From the IMG/VR virus record IMGVR_UViG_3300045256_000282, positions 62,001-126,000 of that record: a stretch of 64,000 bases of DNA; one strand, 5' to 3'. How positions within the stretch are numbered: the stretch's first letter is position 1; every line of letters starts with the position of its first letter. Shown one piece after another: positions 19,047 through 62,064 of the stretch. A program made the translations under genes and the position numbers. The stretch comes from a virus. Below the pieces are notes generated by a model. That model was not told the origin of the DNA. It did not search any database and saw nothing but the letters and a program-made list of their open reading frames with translations.

Positions 19047-19406
19047 TTAATTATAGAGTGGATCTATCTTAAAACTAACCTTCCACCTTCGGTTAAAATC
19101 CTCTGGATTCATCACAAACCTAAGCAGACCTCTTCCTGGGTTTAACACTACTACGATCTCCTCCCTAACCTGCCGTCGCTCTATTACTCTTTTCTCGTAA
19201 GTGCGAAGCCTGTTGGATTCGATCTGGATCTCAGAAAGTATTGGTCCAGGAAACTCAATACCGAGCCAGCACTTTAACTTCATAAAAAAACCCACGGGCT
19301 TGAATATAACAGTCAGTCTTACCGTGCGTTTTTCGTGAGAAGCTATGGATCTTTCTATAAGTAAAGCGCCGCTAGTTTGATCCTTGGTGATCTTACAATC
19401 ACTCAC
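19047..19406 (-). CDS. Hypothetical protein, 119 aa
   Basis: GTG start at 19406 overlapping the stop of the Rrf2-like gene (GTGA). Beta-strand-rich with many Arg residues in the second half. Unknown. Confidence 0.6.
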   Translation of the reverse strand: MSDCKITKDQTSGALLIERSIASHEKRTVRLTVIFKPVGFFMKLKCWLGIEFPGPILSEIQIESNRLRTYEKRVIERRQVREEIVVVLNPGRGLLRFVMNPEDFNRRWKVSFKIDPLYN

Positions 19407-19738
19407 AGGTCGATCTTAGTACTTTCAAAAGCACGATTAAGTTGCTGAGACAAGTCTCCAGTAACTCCGATTAGTGTCGTGTTGGTGTTGTACCCAAACA
19501 ACTGAGCGACAGCCAGTGCTGTTACAGACTGACCTCGGTTTGCCACATAGCCGCCTCCAGGACCACGAATAGATTTCGTCATCCCTGCAACTCGAAGCTT
19601 GCGCACAACTTGCTCCACATAGTTGGTTGTTGAGCCGATCTTCTCAGCGATTACCTGACTTTTTACTGGAACCGTCTCGTTTTTGAGAACTTCCAGGGTT
19701 TTCAAAGCAATCTCTACGTTCTTGTTTACTTTTAACAT
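19403..19738 (-). CDS. Rrf2-family winged-helix regulator
   Basis: 111 residues. The winged-helix signature YVEQVVRKLRVAGMTKSIRG with the following PGGGY is the Rrf2/IscR pattern. It lacks the cysteines that bind an iron-sulfur cluster in IscR, so it would act as a cluster-free repressor, perhaps sensing something else or nothing. Candidate factor for the TGAGAT boxes in this window, by inference only. Confidence 0.8.
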   Translation of the reverse strand: MLKVNKNVEIALKTLEVLKNETVPVKSQVIAEKIGSTTNYVEQVVRKLRVAGMTKSIRGPGGGYVANRGQSVTALAVAQLFGYNTNTTLIGVTGDLSQQLNRAFESTKIDL

Positions 19739-19974: not shown

Positions 19975-20298
19975 CTAAAAATTCCATCTTAGCATTAATG
20001 ATTGACTATCTCTTGATTTGCCCAACTCTAGTCTATCACAAAAGTCAGGTACTTTAAAGCCCACTTTCGCTTCTTCTCCGCGAGAAAGCTTGTATGCGGC
20101 AACTCCGTATCCGGCGGTTTTTTCGACCGCATCAGGCGTATACTTGTGGGCAGTGTTCTTGGCGTAGTTCTCAACCATCTCCATGTTCTGGTACAAACCC
20201 ACTTGTTTCGACGTAGCCTCGGAAGTGGTAGAACACATGTTAGATGGCATCCAACTCATACTTGCGCAAAAACTAGCTATTAAAAAACTGTTAAACAT
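19975..20298 (-). CDS. Exported protein, 107 aa
   Basis: ATG 20298 with GAGGAG upstream. A hydrophobic N-terminus (FNSFLIASFCASM) reads as a signal peptide. The end SLMLRWNF has the alternating pattern with a terminal Phe seen in outer-membrane proteins. Function unknown; part of the envelope-directed set. Confidence 0.55.
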   Translation of the reverse strand: MFNSFLIASFCASMSWMPSNMCSTTSEATSKQVGLYQNMEMVENYAKNTAHKYTPDAVEKTAGYGVAAYKLSRGEEAKVGFKVPDFCDRLELGKSRDSQSLMLRWNF

Positions 20299-20299
20299 A

Positions 20300-20512
20300 C
20301 TAATCTCCTCCACTACTCCAAGGATACCCCGGATCTTCTTCTTTTGCAAACGGAGGGGGGCCAGCATAGTAATCGATCTTAGTTTTAGAATTGTCCTTAA
20401 TTTTCAAGTTCTTATCGCTACACTTGGAGCAAGAGGGCGGGTTATTGACATTTAGCCAATTCTCCTCCCACTGGTAGCCACAATAATTGCACTCCAAGCT
20501 ATAGCGTTTCAT
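20300..20512 (-). CDS. Zinc-ribbon miniprotein, 70 aa
   Basis: CNYCGYQW near 8-15 and CSKC near 28-31 form a zinc ribbon, followed by a Pro/Gly-rich tail. Start overlaps the upstream stop (ATGA). Ends 1 nt before the exported-protein start. Confidence 0.7.
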   Translation of the reverse strand: MKRYSLECNYCGYQWEENWLNVNNPPSCSKCSDKNLKIKDNSKTKIDYYAGPPPFAKEEDPGYPWSSGGD

Positions 20513-20682
20513 TCGTCGCCCACAACGCCAAAGCTACTATTGCCCATAGACGAGGTTGCGTTTAGCTTGGAGGCTTCTTTTCGAGCCTCCTCCTCGTCCT
20601 TAAACTCAGCAACAATTCGAAAAGATCCCTTTCCTAGTTGCTCATATACCAACCAAACTCTAACTTCTCTTTGATAGCTCAT
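20509..20682 (-). CDS. Hypothetical protein, 57 aa
   Basis: Coupled at both ends by ATGA overlaps. Strand-helix protein starting MSYQREVRVWLVYEQ. Unknown. Confidence 0.65.
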   Translation of the reverse strand: MSYQREVRVWLVYEQLGKGSFRIVAEFKDEEEARKEASKLNATSSMGNSSFGVVGDE

Positions 20683-20915
20683 CGACGACCTCCAAAGGTT
20701 CTTTCGTGATCTCTAACAGCTCGGTCGTGACTCTCCAGTTCATCGCAGAACTTTTGAATGGCTTTTGAGTTGTTCGAGATCGTGTTTAAGTCAACATCTC
20801 TGTAATCTAGCGCTGCTCTAGACTGTTCGTTCAATCCAGCCTGACATCCTCGGTTATACTCGCTTAATGACGCACAGCCAGAGAACAGAACCATGATAAG
20901 TGGTAAGTATTTCAT
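20679..20915 (-). CDS. Small predicted lipoprotein, 78 aa
   Basis: Signal with lipobox FSGC (Cys14), then a charged helical body. Likely a phage-encoded envelope lipoprotein; it sits between a membrane protein gene and zinc-ribbon genes. Rz1-type spanin is a possibility given size and lipobox, but it lacks the usual proline-rich body and no Rz gene is visible. Confidence 0.65.
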   Translation of the reverse strand: MKYLPLIMVLFSGCASLSEYNRGCQAGLNEQSRAALDYRDVDLNTISNNSKAIQKFCDELESHDRAVRDHERTFGGRR

Positions 20916-20916
20916 A

Positions 20917-21231
20917 CTACTCTCCTTTGACCTTAAGCAATTTAAACGTAAGCGCTACGCCAAGAAGGGCTACTACGATCTGAACAAAAAGACCGAAAAC
21001 CATTCCGACCACTCCACTCGAGTAGATCAGCACCATACCTGCAGCAGAACCTGCGCCTTGAGTTACAAGACGATGAGGTGCTCCCAAAAGACCCCCGATC
21101 AGCAGGAGTACCGAGGCCATAGTCATGTGGTTATCAAACAAGGCTAACACGCCAGTCATGCTGACCAAGAACCAAGCGATAACCAAAACCTTACCGTACT
21201 TTTCATTCAAACTTCTAATCTTATCTAACAT
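20917..21231 (-). CDS. Multi-pass membrane protein, 104 aa
   Basis: Three predicted transmembrane segments (about 15-33, 38-50 and 68-98). Next to a lipoprotein and an outer-membrane enzyme gene, so part of the envelope-related cluster. Function unknown. Confidence 0.6.
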   Translation of the reverse strand: MLDKIRSLNEKYGKVLVIAWFLVSMTGVLALFDNHMTMASVLLLIGGLLGAPHRLVTQGAGSAAGMVLIYSSGVVGMVFGLFVQIVVALLGVALTFKLLKVKGE

Positions 21232-21243
21232 ACCTTCTCCTTA

Positions 21244-21741
21244 TCACCAGGGAATCATTATTTGAAGTCCCAAGGTATCTCTTCCCTGGTTGGGTTTAAA
21301 GATACCGGCACTCGAGATGTGCTTGTATTGAAATCCGATAGATACTTTTGTTTTTTGATCCCTGATCCCAAAACCAAAGTCCTCAAAGAATTGCGCAGGT
21401 CCACCTAGAACCGTATCTGGGGAGCTGATGAGGCCAACACCCTGAAAGAAGTTGACGTACAGAGCGCCAGCCGTTGGCTCGACACCAATCGAGTAAGATC
21501 CAAAAGCACTGCTTTTAGCGCCATCTCGTCCAGAATGGTCAGACCAGAATCCGATCTCCCACTTCTTCTCAAGAAACGCAAGCTCGTCTTGGTAACCTAG
21601 AGATAAGCCCTTTTGAGCAGCCACGTCTTCGGTGTGAGCGTTCACAGAATACTTTAAAAACGTACCTTCCGCGCCAAGAGACCTGGCTGGCGAAAAGGCC
21701 ACTAGAGAAAACAAGCTAATAATAAGTAAAAACTTTTTCAC
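21244..21741 (-). CDS. PagL-like lipid A 3-O-deacylase (outer-membrane barrel)
   Basis: 165 residues with a signal peptide (cleavage near 23). PagL removes the 3-O acyl chain from lipid A in the outer membrane. The active-site region is recognisable: KHISSAGIFKPNQG, with His141 and Ser143 in the H-x-S arrangement, and an acidic residue (Asp155) 14 residues after the His, where Pseudomonas PagL has Glu. Alternating beta-barrel strands run throughout and it ends in a C-terminal Trp. Length matches PagL. The Asp for Glu change leaves activity open. Confidence 0.65.
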   Translation of the reverse strand: MKKFLLIISLFSLVAFSPARSLGAEGTFLKYSVNAHTEDVAAQKGLSLGYQDELAFLEKKWEIGFWSDHSGRDGAKSSAFGSYSIGVEPTAGALYVNFFQGVGLISSPDTVLGGPAQFFEDFGFGIRDQKTKVSIGFQYKHISSAGIFKPNQGRDTLGLQIMIPW

Positions 21742-22016
21742 GATACCTCCGTTTGGAATCTATAAGCTTTTTCTATAAAGTTCTCAATGTCCAGCATAGC
21801 AGCGCTTGCATCTAAGATCAACTTGTCAAAATCTTGTTTTGTGGCGAACTGTACGTTATCCACCGTACGATGAACCTCATACGGCTTACATCCAAAATCG
21901 TGAATCTCAAACACAACCGTGTCGTGAAACACGAAGCTAACCTTTCCTGGGTACGTCTTAGTGCCGTCCCAGTTAACTCCCACTACCCATCTACCAATGT
22001 CTTTTTCCGTAATCAA
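21738..22016 (-). CDS. Hypothetical protein, 92 aa
   Basis: A TTG start at 22016 fits best: it overlaps the upstream stop (TTGA) and has GGAGG four bases upstream. Beta-rich N-terminal half (VFHDTVVFEIHDFG) then a helix. Ends in ATGA with the PagL-like gene. Unknown. Confidence 0.55.
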   Translation of the reverse strand: MITEKDIGRWVVGVNWDGTKTYPGKVSFVFHDTVVFEIHDFGCKPYEVHRTVDNVQFATKQDFDKLILDASAAMLDIENFIEKAYRFQTEVS

Positions 22017-22336
22017 ATTGCCTCCGATATCTTGCACCAATGAGCATGGCGGTTGGGGTTTGACGTCTTATGCGCCCCGCAGTCACATTCTGGCACACTT
22101 TTTGCGCTTGTAATCTCTACAGGGGGCATGTCGTCTAGGTCGTACATCTTGCCAGGCATTCCAGGAGGGGTGAAATCGATGATGTTACCCCCATACCCCG
22201 TTACCCAAACTTCTAGATGTCCATCCCATTGGTACGTGTCCGTGTAGGATGTGAATACATATCCGTCGTTCGGAGCTTCTTTCCAGGAACCATCCGGCCA
22301 ATAGGTAAAAGTTTTATACATAACTAGGTTTTTCAT
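22013..22336 (-). CDS. Protein with CxCG...HWC zinc tail, 107 aa
   Basis: ATG 22336 overlaps the upstream stop. The body has Trp/Tyr-rich strands; the C-terminal CDCGAHKTSNPNRHAHWCK forms a likely zinc site and matches the tail recovered by frameshift in the gene at 11750-12078. The two are distant paralogues or share a domain. Function unknown. Confidence 0.7.
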   Translation of the reverse strand: MKNLVMYKTFTYWPDGSWKEAPNDGYVFTSYTDTYQWDGHLEVWVTGYGGNIIDFTPPGMPGKMYDLDDMPPVEITSAKSVPECDCGAHKTSNPNRHAHWCKISEAI

Positions 22337-22518
22337 TTTTTGACCTCGTACAAGTAGGTTAGGCAAAAGCCCGCCAATATCGCCGTAATAATCGCCTGAA
22401 CACCGAGGAACATGGCGATCTCGTTCGTAAACAGTATAGAAGTTCCGAAGTAAAAGACTGAATAAGCAATCCCTAAGCTTTTAGCGGCGCTTAGTATGTT
22501 TCTTAGAAGCTTTTTCAT
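22333..22518 (-). CDS. Two-helix membrane protein, 61 aa
   Basis: Basic start, then two hydrophobic segments (about 14-32 and 38-56). Unknown role. Confidence 0.6.
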   Translation of the reverse strand: MKKLLRNILSAAKSLGIAYSVFYFGTSILFTNEIAMFLGVQAIITAILAGFCLTYLYEVKK

Positions 22519-22847: not shown

Positions 22848-22898
22848 ACAGTCTTGGTTGTTACACCGCAACTTAGACTTAAGTAGTTGATTTTAATT

Positions 22899-25331
22899 AT
22901 GAAAAAAGAAATTCGATTTTCTGCCAAATTAGACACACAAGAGTTCGACCGTACAGTAGATCAACTACAGCGGAAGTTGAAGGATATCTATAAGGGTTCT
23001 GAGCAAACCCGCACGTCCTATCAAAACCAAGACCGAATGAGCCGGTTGGGCCTTGGTCAGGCACCAAGCGCCTCTGATAGGAACAAGCTAGATCAGGCCG
23101 ACGCAAAAGCTAGGCGAGATACCGACCAGTTTATAAAGCAACAGGTCAGAGATCAGGAAAAACTCGCTAAGACCATTAACTCTCAGGTCGAGGAGATGAA
23201 GAAGCTCCAAAAGATTCAAAAAGAACTTGCGAAAGATTCTGAAGAATACTTTAAAACGCAACAAAAACTTTCTCAGCTAGAAAAGCAGACCTCCATGAAC
23301 CGCGCCCAAATGCAGGCAAAAGATTCAGCGATATCAAACGCGCTGGATCAGCGGGAAGGAATGGGGATTGGTGGATTGGGCCGTTTAAGACAGGCGTACC
23401 AAAACGGAGGTATTGGCGGAGCAATGACCGCTGGCGGACGGATGGGCTCGCAATACCTGCGAGGCCTAGGACCCGGAGCACTTGCCGGGACTGTCTTGGG
23501 GGCGGCTGGATCTGCTCTTGCAATTCATTCTCAAATAGGCCTAGATATTGGAATGGCTCCTTCTGTTGCTTCTCAAAATAGGGGTCAGGCAGCTTCTACC
23601 TACAACGAAAACCTTCAAAACATTTTTTCTGGAAATGGTTATGAGGACGTATTCTATGCAAAAGAAAACAAAAAAGCCAGGGAAGATGCAAAAAAGGCAG
23701 TCGATGCTAAGCGAAAAAGCGATAAGGAAGGCATCTTTTCCCAATTTTTACAGGGCGCTGGAGGAGGCGCGGTTGCGGGCGGTGCGGCAGGATCTTTTTT
23801 TGGTGGCATTGGGGCTGGACCGGGGGCGATAATTGGAGGAATAATTGGAGGAATAGCCTCTCTTTTCAAAAATAGGGAAACCATCCTTGGAAATATGGGT
23901 GTAGGCCCCTACAAAGATACCCTAGAGTCTAAGTATGACGTTTTTGAATCTGATACGTTTAAAAGAAACAAAGAAGCAAATAAACAATTAGATCCCATCA
24001 AGAAGCTTGCTTTTGAAGATTTTCAAAAAAACATGATGCAAAATCTTAACTTCCAAAGAAGCACCGGGATAAACGATCAGCAGATGTTTGATTTTAATGA
24101 CCAGATAACTAGGTCTGGCTTTACTCGAAGCATGGGTAGGGAGGCCTCGCAAGGAATTCTTGCCGCTGGTGGATCTACCAGAGGAGCGCTAGGAAACGCG
24201 AGCCTATCTCTTCAGATGCAAAGGGATTACAACCTCACAAACGCAAATCAGGTACTCGGACGATTAAGCGGCACGATGGGCTCTGCCGCAGCTTCTGAAA
24301 AATCTTTGATATCCGTATTAGCCGCTGGTATGAAGGAAGGGTTAGACAAGTCTGAGTTTGCTGAAGAAAATAGGAAATTTACACAGGCCATAAGCGAGAC
24401 CATATATAGGACAGGCGCAAACGATCCGGCCACCGCTGCCATGATAGCAAACAGGGAGGCCAGCTTCTTAGCAAGCAAGACGACTAGGGGTATTGAGGCT
24501 GCTCAGTCGGCGTCTCAATTTGTTTCTGGCATCGAAAAACAAGGATCTGGCATAGGATCAGTTCTTGAAATGGGTGGCATGCTTAGCAATAAGAACCTAA
24601 GCAAGCTAAATCCAGTGTCTATGTCGGCTATTCAAAATATGGACATGAACCAGATCATGTCTCTAAGCCCAGCAGAGAAAAGTTCTCTCACTAGACAGGC
24701 TGGTTTTAATAGCTTTGACGAGTTTATTCAGGCCGTAGCACCTAACAAAGAGATGAAGCTTGCCGGACAGCTACCTCAGCTTTACGAGTCTGTTCAAAAA
24801 TCTAAGAAATTTAACGAAGCAAACAAGATGGGTCCTTTGACTAAGGAGCAGCAAGCTGAAGGCGAAGACGCAGAGGCTGGAGTGAAACTTGCACTTAAGG
24901 CCGGTTTTGGTTTAGATAATGCCTCCGCAGATTCGGTTTACAAAGAGATGATGGATACTGGAAAGTTTGACATAGCATCCATCAAGAAGATGAGTGAAAA
25001 GGTTCAAAGTTCTGCAGGAGCACCCACCGGAAGAGCCGCAGATACGGTGATCGGATCTGCTGCCTCAAACGAAGCTGCCGTTAACACGCTTCAAAAAAAC
25101 TTCATACCACAAATCGATAGCGCGGCCAGCTCCGTAGGTAAGTTTGCTGATGAGATCAACAAGTCACTAGAAACTATCCGAAAATTAGGAGAAGCTGGTA
25201 AGCAGGGGGATATGGTGGAAGAACTTAAGAAGCTCAACTCGAACATATCGTCTCGTTTTGCAGATCAACTCGGTAAGGATTCGAACGGGAAGCCCTTGGT
25301 TCAAGACCAGGGTTCTCCTCGAAGGGAATAG
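22899..25331 (+). CDS. Tail tape-measure-like protein
   Basis: 811 residues from ATG 22899 (an in-frame TTG lies 12 nt upstream; no clear ribosome site marks either). N-terminal 150 residues are Gln/Lys-rich coiled coil. A hydrophobic glycine-rich stretch at about 285-325 (GGIGAGPGAIIGGIIGGIA) resembles the membrane-active segments of tape measures, and the rest is helical. Tape measures set tail length and thread through the tube. The position just before hub and spike genes fits. It is modest in length for a tape measure, so another internal tail protein is possible. Confidence 0.7.
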   Translation: MKKEIRFSAKLDTQEFDRTVDQLQRKLKDIYKGSEQTRTSYQNQDRMSRLGLGQAPSASDRNKLDQADAKARRDTDQFIKQQVRDQEKLAKTINSQVEEMKKLQKIQKELAKDSEEYFKTQQKLSQLEKQTSMNRAQMQAKDSAISNALDQREGMGIGGLGRLRQAYQNGGIGGAMTAGGRMGSQYLRGLGPGALAGTVLGAAGSALAIHSQIGLDIGMAPSVASQNRGQAASTYNENLQNIFSGNGYEDVFYAKENKKAREDAKKAVDAKRKSDKEGIFSQFLQGAGGGAVAGGAAGSFFGGIGAGPGAIIGGIIGGIASLFKNRETILGNMGVGPYKDTLESKYDVFESDTFKRNKEANKQLDPIKKLAFEDFQKNMMQNLNFQRSTGINDQQMFDFNDQITRSGFTRSMGREASQGILAAGGSTRGALGNASLSLQMQRDYNLTNANQVLGRLSGTMGSAAASEKSLISVLAAGMKEGLDKSEFAEENRKFTQAISETIYRTGANDPATAAMIANREASFLASKTTRGIEAAQSASQFVSGIEKQGSGIGSVLEMGGMLSNKNLSKLNPVSMSAIQNMDMNQIMSLSPAEKSSLTRQAGFNSFDEFIQAVAPNKEMKLAGQLPQLYESVQKSKKFNEANKMGPLTKEQQAEGEDAEAGVKLALKAGFGLDNASADSVYKEMMDTGKFDIASIKKMSEKVQSSAGAPTGRAADTVIGSAASNEAAVNTLQKNFIPQIDSAASSVGKFADEINKSLETIRKLGEAGKQGDMVEELKKLNSNISSRFADQLGKDSNGKPLVQDQGSPRRE

Positions 25332-48541: not shown

Positions 48542-51500
48542 ATGCCGAATATCTTTGACTTACGTCAGACACAGCAACGCTCAAGCCTCCCCTTCATCAC
48601 TGGAGCTGCAAACAGCCTCGGTAATGCGATCGTTTCGGCAATTGACGCTGAGTTGGCGAAACTTTTTGAAGATCGTAACGTTCTTTTGACCCAAGGTGGT
48701 TTGATCACCTACACGGGTACCCAGATCCAGTTTGGTGAAGCGCTTAAGCTTGAGATCAATTCTAAGGTGGCTGGCGGCTCTCCCGTAATCATCGACCTTG
48801 GATCGACCACTCGTACGGTCTCTGCTTCTGGCCGAATGGTTTATGCTGTTATTAATCGTACCGCTGGAACCGCTACGGTTACGGACGATGCAACAACCCT
48901 CCCTGCAGTAACTAACGCTAACCAAGAGGTGTTCTTGATCGCTAAGCGACAAGATGCTGCCGATGGTACTAAGCGCGTTTATTTCCGAACCGGAGCTGCT
49001 TTCAACGAAGGCCAAACCGCTCGATTGGGCTCGGCTGGTAGCGGCTCGGGAACTGGTGGTGCTGGTGACGACATTAACACTCTCCGCTTCAAAGCTTCTT
49101 TCTCAGACGATTTCTCTGACAGCCCAACCTCTTCGACCAGCGCAGTCAACAACACCCTTACTACGGGTGTTTATAGCGCTGCAGGTGCCGCTTACCGCTT
49201 AAGCTACGATGCTTCTAAGACCGTAACTGGTACCGGAACTAGCATGACCTTGTCTGCCACTCCAACCTACACGGTAGCCCCAGGGGATATCCTTGTGGTT
49301 GGTACGGAAGCTCGCCGAATTACTGTGGTAGCAACACAAACTTCTTACACGATTGAAGCCGCTTTTAGCGCTAACCCTTCGGCTGCTGCGGCTTGCGTTT
49401 CTCAGGCTGTTCACACTAACGACATCAGAGCGCATACCGAGAACAGTACTGGCCTTGCGATGAACGCACTCATCTCAGACGCAGTAAGCACCTTCATGCT
49501 ACGCTACAGAGATAGCGCCGCTAACAACGACTTTGTTTGGGATTATCCAGGCGCAGCCCTTATCGCCGCAAGCTCTTCCGCTGATAACGCTAACTGGAGC
49601 GCTCCCTACACTCGCACCACTACTCTTGGAACTACTGAGCCAATTCGTTCAGTACCAGTTTCTGGTTCACAGTTCCGTACGCGATTCTTCGCAAACGCTA
49701 CGAGCGGAAGTGGCGCTGTAAACATCCTCGATTATAAGGCCTATCTTCACGAAGATTCTGGCACGACTTCAGGCACCACGATGGATCAGGCTTACGGCCT
49801 CACCTCTGGAGCCGGAACTCCGATCAACTGCTCGATCAGCTCCTCGACTGGAAAAACTCGTATCACGACCACATGGGCGTACGCTACAGGCGTAAACCCA
49901 GGAACTCAGCAAGGTCAACTTGACGTTTACCTAGACGGAAAACTCCTCCCAAGATTTATCAACGCAACCCAAACCCCAGATGCTTACTATACGGAGATCT
50001 CAGCTCAAGTTATCGAGCTTGATCAGGACTATAGTGGCGCAGGTATTGAAATTGATATCAAGAAACGCGTAAGCGCGGTAGATACGACCTCACAGAACAG
50101 CACGAACCTTGGCTACCTGCAAGACATGTCTAAGGTTGGTTTTCAAGGCTTCGTTGATGAAAGCTCTTTGCTTTCTCCGATCACTGGTGCTCCTTCCTCA
50201 TCTCAGTTCAGAACATTTGGTATCGTAAACAGAGCCTCTATCCCCAATCTTTCAAATGACCTCCGTGCCCGTATGGGTATCGATCGTATTCAAGTTCAGC
50301 AAGCGGTTGAGCTTCAAAACGAAGTTGGCCCCAACGGCGAGAAAATCTTTGGAGCTTTGAACGACGATAGAAACTTGATTCGTTTTGTCGGAAATTGGAA
50401 AAACTTAACAAATACTTTTGGTAGCGTCGTAAACCCTTCTGCTGTAGGTGATTACATCGAAGTAGTTTTCTATGGCACAGGCTTGAACATGCTTGTGGGT
50501 TTTGTAAATGAAACACAAGATATCAGAGTCATAGTAGATGGCGGATCTGAAGGATCAAACATCTGGCCAAATGGGTCTACTCTTTTAAACGGTAGAAATT
50601 ATAGCCAGAATGCTGTTCTTTCGATTGCTTCAGGATTGTCTCAAGGATTGCATACCGTGAGGATCAGGCAGGCAAACTTAGGAAGTTCCGGCGTTTACCT
50701 GACTGGTTTTGAGATTCTAAACGAATCTTCAACCATCAACGTCCGCCCTGGTACGTCTTATCAAAACGGCAAAAAGCTTGTTCTCTCTTCTGCTCAAAGT
50801 CTTGCATACAACTCAAGTTTTGAATCAATCCTTAGAGACGGCTCTTTGGTTGGATCACTTTCGACCAGGGGTGCTCACGTTGTTGTTTATCAGAAATCGG
50901 ACGGTACGGTAGCTAAAGCAGCTATCGAAACCAACAGTTCTGCTGCGTATATAACCTCTGCTGATCATACAAACGAAGAAGTTGCTAGAACCTATTATCC
51001 TAGAGAATTTGGCGCAGGAAGATCTGATGACTTTAGCACCCTTTTAAGCTCAGGGAGCACCAGAGCGTTTACTCTGGACGATGGTACTACAGCTCTTGCT
51101 TGCCAAAACTACGCCTTAAACAACGTTGGCGGTTTGGGAGACGGATTGATTGTGGGCTCTGGTGCGGGTGACTTTGTTACCTTCACGTTTGTTGGAACTG
51201 GTTTAGACATCACTAACGTGAGAAACGCTACCTCAAACTCTTCTTATACGATTACAGTTGATGGAACAAACGTACTGACAGCCTCCGTTTTTGGTGGTTC
51301 TGGTTTTAATAACGTCCTAAAGATAGCTTCGGGACTTCCTTACGGCACACACACTGTCAAGATCAACATGACCACCAACGGCGGTGTTGCTCTTGCTATT
51401 GGTAAGTTCATTGTTTATCAACCCAAGAAACCTTCCATTCCTGCAGGTGCAGTTGAACTAGCAGATTACAACGTCATGGCTGATTTTATAGCTAACACTA

Positions 51501-59150: not shown

Positions 59151-59491
59151 GAATCATAAAACACATAAAAGATATAATTCAAAATAAGGCCCCAGCAGGA
59201 GCACTAAGATCTCCTAGGTGGCCCAAGGTTAGAGCTGAGCACTTATCAGCTAACCCTAAATGTGCAGTTTGCGAAAGTACGTCAGTTCTTGAAGTACATC
59301 ACATACGACCCTTTCACCAAGACCCTTCGTTAGAACTTGATCCTAAGAACCTCATAACGCTATGTGAGTCCAAGTCTAAGGGCGTAACTTGCCACCAATT
59401 CTTTGGTCACCTAGGCGATTATAAGAACGAGAATCCTAACGTGGTCAAAGACGCCAAATCTTGGAATAAGAAGCTTAAGAAAACTACTTGA
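59147..59491 (+). CDS. HNH endonuclease
   Basis: 114 residues. Zinc knuckle CAVC, then the HNH core LEVHHIRPFH, ELDPKNLITLC and CHQFFGH. Small phage HNH enzymes often nick DNA near packaging or act as homing nucleases. Last plus-strand gene of the block; it overlaps the convergent aminotransferase by 8 nt. Confidence 0.85.
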   Translation: MRIIKHIKDIIQNKAPAGALRSPRWPKVRAEHLSANPKCAVCESTSVLEVHHIRPFHQDPSLELDPKNLITLCESKSKGVTCHQFFGHLGDYKNENPNVVKDAKSWNKKLKKTT

Positions 59492-60479
59492 TCTTATCGT
59501 TTTTAAGGACGGTTTTCACCATAGCTCGAGTTGCAGCGTTGGTGTGAGCAAGGTTTATCCTGACGCTATCTCGATCATCTCCGCACACCTGTCCTGGCGT
59601 GGTTACGACCATGGAGCGATCAAGTAACTCCTTTAGCTTAGAATCAACCTCAAACAAGGCAAACATGCCCTTGTCAGGTATCGTCTGGTCTCCGAAGATC
59701 TTTGAAAGCTTCTCAACCTCAGTTCTGTTGCTATCTATGACCAGCTTTGACTTATCCCAGAAGGCTTCCATATCGACGCTGGTGAGGATCTCTTTAGCCA
59801 ACCACTGCGAAGGTAGGGAGATGCCGCAAGTGTCTAAGGTAGCCCATCTGGCAGCCCTGTCGTAGAGCCCCTGATCGTTAGTCGCAAGCCAACCGATCCT
59901 GATCCCGTTGATCCCGGTGAGTTTGCTCAAGCTTCCGGCCATAGCCTCATGCGGAGGGTATGGCGTGCAAAACTCCCTCGTACCTACGGTCCTAACTCCG
60001 TAAGTCGGAGAGTAGTATGCGGCATCCCAAACCCTTCTGCCGTCTGAAAAGCTAGAAGATACGACACCCTCAGGGTTACTAGGTGAATCTAGGATCTCAA
60101 GGTCATATGGAAAGTTCACCTTACTAGGGGTGTTAGAGGGAGAGTGAATTAGGCCGTGGTTCTGAGCGATACCGGGGTAAAAGGGAAAGTAAAGCTTTCT
60201 AGTGCTTACTCGGACAGTCTTTTCTTCTTTTTGAGCTGCTACGTACGCATTCAGCGCGTGAGTACACCCTTGAGTGATCAGGATGTGCTCGTAGTTCTTA
60301 CCAGTCAGTCTTCGTACGAGTGACCTAACTAAGATTACTAGTTCTTCTTCGCCTTCGTGCTTAGGATACCCGAAAGAGTCGATTGGCATCGGCTTAAGAA
60401 GGAGAGAAGGTGCTGTTTGAATAAGGGCTTCTCTGACTCCGTACGTGTCTCCCCATCCAAACTGGTGCTTTTTTTGCAT
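59484..60479 (-). CDS. PLP-dependent aminotransferase (fold type I)
   Basis: 331 residues from ATG 60479, which has a strong GAGGAGG site. The fold type I signature runs in order: GCTHAL at 71-76, SPSNPEG at 132-138 (Asn135), WDAAYY at 151-156 (Asp152, Tyr155), SLSKLTG with the cofactor lysine at 186, GIRIGW at 192-197, and Arg307 in DSVRINLAH. Full-length, so probably active; the substrate is not evident. The layout recalls the alliinase/TAA1-like branch. Such enzymes are uncommon in phages and may serve nucleotide or wall chemistry. The upstream gene overlaps it by 142 nt. Confidence 0.8.
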   Translation of the reverse strand: MQKKHQFGWGDTYGVREALIQTAPSLLLKPMPIDSFGYPKHEGEEELVILVRSLVRRLTGKNYEHILITQGCTHALNAYVAAQKEEKTVRVSTRKLYFPFYPGIAQNHGLIHSPSNTPSKVNFPYDLEILDSPSNPEGVVSSSFSDGRRVWDAAYYSPTYGVRTVGTREFCTPYPPHEAMAGSLSKLTGINGIRIGWLATNDQGLYDRAARWATLDTCGISLPSQWLAKEILTSVDMEAFWDKSKLVIDSNRTEVEKLSKIFGDQTIPDKGMFALFEVDSKLKELLDRSMVVTTPGQVCGDDRDSVRINLAHTNAATRAMVKTVLKNDKIK

Positions 60480-60847: not shown

Positions 60848-62064
60848 TTCTTGACCCTCTTATCCTTATCGTGCCTGTAAAGCTGCCTTTCCTTGATACT
60901 CTTCTGTAAATGCTCATCAAACCATAGCGGTCTAATGTTTTCTGCTCTTGCAGCTAGGGCCAACTCGTCGGGGTTCTTAAGATTAAAGGACGCAAGAGGT
61001 ATTACATGATCTAACTGCCACTTGCCCCTGCCGTTTCCCCAATTCTCCCATGTCATCTTTTGACCGGATATGGGGTCGTCGTAAAACTTAGACTCTATAT
61101 AGGTCTTAAAATCTTCGTAGGACATACCGATCAATTTTTTAGTGGTACTGTTTTTTTGAGCTTTCTTAGACTTTAAAGCCGAGCTTAGTCTGCTTCTGAG
61201 CAATAGGCTGATCTTGTAAACAAGATCTTCTTTATACCTTTCAGCCTGTCTTATGGATGCCTGCTTTTTAAGCTTATCTTTATTCTTTTTACGGTACTCT
61301 AACATGTAGGAGGCCCTAGCCTCCACTGTCTTTTCTCTCCAAAGCTTCTTTTCGGCCTTTCTCTTGCTTGATTTGTTTCTAATAGATGTACAATCTCTAC
61401 AAACATCCCCCGGCTTAACCTTACCGTTTTTTCTTTCGCAGAAGAATTTCAATGGCAATATTCTAGCGCAAGATCCGCAAAACGTCTCGCTATCAGGAAT
61501 AGGCGTCATCTTCCCGCTATAGATCTCGTACAGACTCTTGGTGACACGTTTATTTATGTGTAAGCCTAATCGAGATTCCCAAAGCCTGACGAGCTTTTTA
61601 GACAACTTGTAGTCTTGACCTTTTTCGGCCTCGATCTCAATGAACCGCTTGTTCTTAAAATTTTTACAGAATACGTCGTAGATTACAACAGAAACGGACC
61701 CCTCTTTGTCGGAAAGCCAAAAGATCTGGCAATCTTTATAAAGCCGAAAAGCTTTGTGATACCCCATCATGCGGATACCCTTAAGCACTCCCTTGATCGG
61801 AGTCCCTGTCAAATCCCAGTCGATCTCGTTTCTAAGGAACGCACTTCTGAGACCTAATCGTGTTTTGAACGTGATCTCTTCCTTGTCGGCGCTATGTCTC
61901 CACCTAAGTACGGATGGGACGGCTTTATGTTCATAATAAGTATCTGGACCCATGATCCGCAGCTTTTTCTTGGGTTTAAAAGAAGATACAAGTTCGCAAA
62001 AACGATCCCAGTCAACGTGGTCTGCCTTGTACTTTTGCTCAATTTCGAGGTAACGGGTGTCCAT
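60844..62064 (-). CDS. CYTH domain fused to HNH endonuclease
   Basis: 406 residues. Residues 1-175 look like a CYTH (triphosphate tunnel) domain: YLEIEQKYK with the ExExK signature at 7-11, VLRWRHS, EITFKTR, LRNEIDWDL, and a RFIEIEAEK strand. The rest is a phage HNH protein: CGSC and CRDC zinc pairs, a basic helical middle, then WQLDHVIPLASF and ENIRPLW. CYTH enzymes hydrolyse or bind triphosphorylated substrates; HNH enzymes cut DNA. The combination is unfamiliar to me. It could be a homing insertion into a CYTH gene or a true two-domain effector. Confidence 0.7.
   Translation of the reverse strand: MDTRYLEIEQKYKADHVDWDRFCELVSSFKPKKKLRIMGPDTYYEHKAVPSVLRWRHSADKEEITFKTRLGLRSAFLRNEIDWDLTGTPIKGVLKGIRMMGYHKAFRLYKDCQIFWLSDKEGSVSVVIYDVFCKNFKNKRFIEIEAEKGQDYKLSKKLVRLWESRLGLHINKRVTKSLYEIYSGKMTPIPDSETFCGSCARILPLKFFCERKNGKVKPGDVCRDCTSIRNKSSKRKAEKKLWREKTVEARASYMLEYRKKNKDKLKKQASIRQAERYKEDLVYKISLLLRSRLSSALKSKKAQKNSTTKKLIGMSYEDFKTYIESKFYDDPISGQKMTWENWGNGRGKWQLDHVIPLASFNLKNPDELALAARAENIRPLWFDEHLQKSIKERQLYRHDKDKRVKK

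Follow-up and report, generated by a model that had tools for sequence, protein, structure and literature searches.

A contractile-tailed phage encodes a member of the PagL family, which is assigned by sequence profile and predicted fold and which is probably a PagL-type enzyme acting on the lipid A of the host. The window, that is the whole stretch of DNA analysed here (64,000 nucleotides), runs from base 62001 to base 126000 of a virus record of 149,068 bases (IMGVR_UViG_3300045256_000282). The origin of the window from this record, the profile match and the modeled fold support the proposal of the initial annotation that a PagL-like protein is carried by a phage. A viral version of this known enzyme family appears to be new: searches of open-access literature turned up no description of a PagL encoded by a phage. 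The phage protein would be exported via its putative signal peptide and take its place as an 8-stranded barrel in the outer membrane of the host, where His141, Ser143 and Asp155, which form the putative triad by homology, would remove the 3-O-linked acyl chain from host lipid A by hydrolysis in the course of infection. Deacylation would alter the shape of lipid A, favor outward curvature and vesiculation, and loosen the outer membrane. On the evidence of sequence and model the protein is likely to be a lipid A deacylase; its enzymatic activity, its substrate and the timing of its action are what we infer.

The pagL gene and its surroundings

The pagL gene (Table 1) is a real gene within a real phage genome. 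Since a GGAGG element precedes it and its start codon and the stop codon of the upstream gene overlap in the sequence GTGA, it is apparently translationally coupled; the downstream gene begins 12 nt past pagL. The genes of the phage around pagL encode parts of the baseplate and tail as well as a T4-like RNA ligase, a dUTPase and ClpP. The nearest isolate is Myxococcus phage Mx1 (terminase 35% and GroEL 43% identity), in which the DUF932 and tail-region genes are ordered in a way comparable to this phage. A PagL ORF was looked for in Mx1 and none was found, indicating that pagL is an accessory gene. The GroEL-like chaperonin gene of the phage, which gives the 43% identity to that of Mx1, lies outside the window (L190, 4671-6452; G000).

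Table 1. Features of the pagL locus, numbered by position in the window.
Feature	Position	Strand	Remarks
pagL-like gene, 165 aa, outer-membrane lipid A 3-O-deacylase homologue	21244..21741	-	GTG start; profile and fold match
Shine-Dalgarno GGAGG, 4 nt 5' of the pagL GTG	21746..21750	-	sequence
Signal-peptide-like N-terminus of the PagL ORF, residues 1-24, MKKFLLIISLFSLVAFSPARSLGA	21670..21741	-	read by eye
Putative catalytic segment H141-I-S143-S144-A-G-I-F-K-P-N151-Q-G-R-D155	21277..21321	-	ungapped 2erv alignment; conservation counts
Upstream gene, 100 aa, no confident family	21738..22040	-	stop overlaps pagL start
117 aa 'YWPDG...WDG' protein	22013..22366	-	relatives adjoin or lie near pagL in L140, L124 (4-6 nt) and L096 (1.6 kb)
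Downstream gene, 104 aa, several hydrophobic segments (by eye)	20917..21231	-	similar-looking gene near pagL in L141
78 aa lipoprotein-like gene, LFSGCAS lipobox (by eye)	20679..20915	-	only sub-threshold spanin-like matches
Divergent 814 aa tail-associated protein	22887..25331	+	homologues 0.5-2 kb from pagL in L140, L124 and L107

Parts of this neighborhood are found in five other viral contigs (L140, L124, L107, L141 and L096), the common parts being the divergent tail protein, the 117-aa gene, an Rrf2-like gene, a small secreted protein and the dUTPase. The gene resembling Rrf2-family regulators (19403-19738, minus strand; Pfam Rrf2, 4e-13) has relatives near pagL in L124, L141 and L096, and another in L189. 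The small secreted-looking protein (19975-20367, minus strand) ends on an aromatic residue, has relatives in L141, L096 and L111, and could be another envelope protein. Farther away, an aminotransferase/alliinase-like gene (59484-60479, minus strand; Pfam 7e-17) is possibly auxiliary.

Relationship to cellular PagL

The phage protein matches the Pfam PagL profile PF09411 with 44.5 bits (E 2.2e-11; gathering cut-off 23), and Pseudomonas aeruginosa PagL (2erv) is the only solved relative obtained by sequence alone (phmmer, E 0.02), with the active-site motif aligned ungapped, HYSNAGLKQPNDGIE. The H-x-S motif and the acidic residue at exactly +14 that the initial annotation had pointed out are located in the stretch KHISSAGIFKPNQGRD of the translated ORF, with H141 and S143 followed by D155. 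However, the use of Asp instead of Glu, which had been regarded as notable, is not, since cellular PagL often has Asp: among ten aligned sequences (nine cellular ones and that of the window) the residue at +14 is Asp in five, Glu in two, Asn in two and Thr in one, and Asp at +14 was rejected as a viral peculiarity. Instead, the distinctive residue of phage PagL is Ser144, directly after the catalytic Ser, which replaces the usual Asn (Asn in 9/9 aligned cellular copies); across 47 viral sequences this position is Ser in 39, Thr in three and Asn in five.

An AlphaFold2 model of the protein, built on a 47-sequence alignment (pLDDT 90.5), is an 8-stranded barrel whose first predicted strand starts at residue 27, in keeping with the barrel-like strands and the signal peptide proposed earlier. 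When the model was compared with solved structures, which was the suggested check against Pseudomonas PagL, the best Foldseek match was indeed 2erv (E 8e-7), the next protein being NspA (1e-4), while VIA-align superimposed 137 residues of the model on 2erv with Z 15.4 and rmsd 2.4, the next barrel being OprF (Z 13.5); the fold margin of PagL over other 8-stranded barrels is thus about 2 Z units for the window model. For a second viral clade, represented by L151, a separate model gave Z 18.3 and rmsd 1.6 with PagL, and 15.5 for the next match. Any structure other than an 8-stranded barrel with His and Ser facing each other had been named as a refutation; in strand count and fold the model passes this check, and the two residues of the motif share one strand, in the PagL pattern. 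A fold search of BFVD returned generic outer-membrane barrels, none of them named PagL.

The 8-stranded barrel, the signal peptide, the size and the aromatic C-terminal residue (Trp in the phage protein) are common to the phage protein and to the PagL of P. aeruginosa (2erv) and Salmonella, and the HxS....PNxG[DE] motif with the acidic residue at +14 is common to the phage protein and cellular PagL. By contrast, the phage protein is only 20-24% identical to the aligned cellular PagL, carries Ser for Asn after the catalytic Ser, is phage-borne, and is known here from its sequence and a model. LpxR, the lipid A 3'-O-deacylase, is like PagL an outer-membrane lipid A deacylase, but its barrel is larger and its active site is another one, consisting of N9, D10, S34 and H122 (PMC3486919), and LpxR (3fid) is a weak Foldseek match of the phage model (E 0.05).

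Relatives in other viruses

Five PagL sequences (that of the window, that of P. aeruginosa, that of the prophage type and those of two further viral types) were used as tblastn queries on 50,697 records of isolated phages, and none of them gave a match, while an RNA ligase control gave 1,692. Single-protein tblastn scans of viral contigs and genome contigs with the window protein were likewise negative, as was a scan with the neighboring tail protein. A degenerate DNA pattern of the motif, HxS[S/T/C/R/W]AG...PNxGx[D/E], was used on IMG/VR and returned 61 contigs, nearly all of them PagL-like by HMM. The full-length viral sequences form, together with that of the window, 42 clusters (85% identity), which carry SSAG at the place where cellular PagL carries SNAG. 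All 47 aligned viral homologues match Pfam PagL (E<=1), as do the 46 viral records tested against PF09411, 43 of them above the cut-off, while the PHROGs contain no confident match for the viral PagL clade. A second, motif-independent scan with another part of the protein yielded 13 PagL ORFs, all of them HxSSAG, of which 12 were already known and one was new. Applied to one genome per species of 84,980 prokaryote species, the degenerate motif pattern gave 24 stretches, of which six are PagL-like, at least three of these in prophage-like surroundings as judged by gene content.

The conservation of H, A, G, P, N, G and the acid is circular in part, as these residues are prescribed by the pattern, but Ser143 is Ser in 47/47 viral sequences although the pattern also allowed T, C, R and W. 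Asp rather than Glu is found in all 42 SSAG-type sequences. Closely related viral copies are under purifying selection, with dN/dS of 0.04-0.17 between close pairs, a measurement made outside the window copy, as the window protein and that of L141 are too distant for a synonymous estimate. The tree places the window protein in a group with 19 further viral rows (support 89), its nearest relative being that of L141 (56% identity). Pseudomonas prophages in IMG/VR (for example L014, L028 and L032) likewise carry a PagL family gene in a viral genome, but theirs is of the SNAG/Glu type and branches with cellular Pseudomonas PagL, and therefore probably represents a separate, more recent uptake.

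Two further observations concern the surroundings of the viral genes. One viral clade has directly 3' of pagL a conserved one-TM protein of about 75-90 aa with the motif NRINH[LF]RLVWFA (L128, L129, L132, L142, L154 and L097), and in L145 and L150 a Cys-rich ORF of repeated CNSC/CDSC units is located upstream of the viral pagL.

Possible roles during infection

Disruption of the outer membrane is a distinct step in the lysis of Gram-negative hosts by phages, for which spanins and disruptins are known solutions. In some other viral clades pagL adjoins genes for an amidase, a cell-wall hydrolase, an M15 peptidase, a three-TM holin or Rz-like proteins, and in Pseudomonas prophages its neighbor is a hol-like gene, at least some of these prophages having endolysin and Rz-like spanin genes close by. 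Seven lysis domain families (eight with the three-TM holin) were searched over whole records and their distances to pagL measured: a lysis domain is located within 3 kb of pagL in 13 of the 32 records with a detected domain, with 7.1 expected by random placement (P about 0.007), and in 9/28 contigs of at least 15 kb, with 4.7 expected (P about 0.03), whereby the P values are optimistic because related records are treated as independent, and short contigs weigh little. Counts of near versus far neighbors (PHROG, Pfam) cover the best 25 families and are illustrative, the distance test being fairer. For the phage of the window a lysis cassette at pagL was rejected, since the nearest detected lysis-domain gene, encoding an SLT domain, is 34 kb away on the opposite strand, and in large relatives the nearest lysis gene is likewise far from pagL (18-36 kb). 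The neighborhood therefore gives no support to a lysis role of the window copy, which would be carried over by analogy from sister clades only. The SLT-domain ORF itself (137 aa; L192, 9019-9429; G000, 49019-49429), which is outside the window, is the best endolysin candidate of the phage.

That the gene belongs to a host or to a metagenomic assembly chimera is a reading suggested by its source, an IMG/VR contig, and by the normally cellular occurrence of PagL, but it is largely refuted and highly improbable: pagL is embedded among tail, dUTPase and DUF932 genes, this neighborhood recurs in the five independent viral contigs, the window protein is placed among 20 viral rows of the tree, and the pattern search of about 85,000 cellular genomes produced so few PagL-like ORFs, half of them or more in prophage-like surroundings. 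Host contamination was rejected on these grounds, namely the cellular-genome scan, the tree position and the recurring neighborhood. It is also unlikely, though less so, that the protein has the PagL fold without lipid A deacylase activity, and serves as a structural surface protein or attacks another lipid ester. The change from Asn144 to Ser in the viral clade, the low identity to cellular PagL and the existence of other small outer-membrane barrels encoded by viruses are consistent with such a loss, whereas the retention of His, Ser, the acid, Asn151 and Gly153 across 42 viral SSAG clusters, the invariance of Ser143 where the search left the residue free, and the purifying selection on closely related copies argue against it.

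A more serious competitor, which we consider quite possible although not the favored reading, accepts the same enzyme but sees its main job in remodeling the surface, such that altered LPS packing would impair binding or injection by competing phages, or by the phage's own progeny when it readsorbs to debris (superinfection exclusion). In the window dUTPase, DUF932 and Rrf2-like genes surround pagL on the minus strand, at a distance from the structural genes of the plus strand, and this placement suggests early or middle expression; furthermore, pagL is found beside DNA polymerase genes in another viral clade, and PagL occurs in Pseudomonas prophages as well. However, the usual LPS receptors are the core and the O-antigen, both of which are left untouched by 3-O deacylation, and the lysis genes that adjoin pagL in several viral clades and in prophages fit late expression. 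The likeliest benefit of the phage enzyme would be that progeny escape more easily when the infection ends, and remodeling against superinfection is a close second.

An effect of PagL on the outer membrane is known from Salmonella, where active PagL raises vesiculation about 4-fold, while the H163A/S165A mutant does not, and where its expression produces vesicles without an envelope stress response, indicating that PagL perturbs the membrane but is not lytic alone (PMC4958258). A functional analogy is offered by LysB of mycobacteriophages such as Ms6, an esterase that acts on outer-membrane lipids in the third step of lysis and is encoded in lysis cassettes (PMC5707550). LysB is of another family, its substrate is mycolyl-arabinogalactan, and its role was shown by deletion, whereas that of viral PagL is proposed by analogy; unlike the genes for outer-membrane lysis proteins (spanins, disruptins and LysB-like proteins), pagL is outside a lysis cassette in this phage, but inside one in other clades. 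It is conceivable, although we hold this only tentatively, that a PagL clade of their own (SSAG/Asp) has been present for a long time in viruses that infect diderm bacteria, and that these viruses use lipid A deacylation as the outer-membrane step of their exit from the host, a Gram-negative counterpart of mycobacteriophage LysB, beside spanins or replacing them.

PagL relatives are found in dozens of uncultured viruses and form a diverse viral clade, so that the gene described here is not an isolated oddity. If truly a lipid A deacylase, the virus-encoded protein would provide an enzymatic route to weaken or remodel the outer membrane, and phages would be able to change the endotoxin structure of their hosts. 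Viruses may thus use PagL to remodel or weaken the outer membrane of the host.
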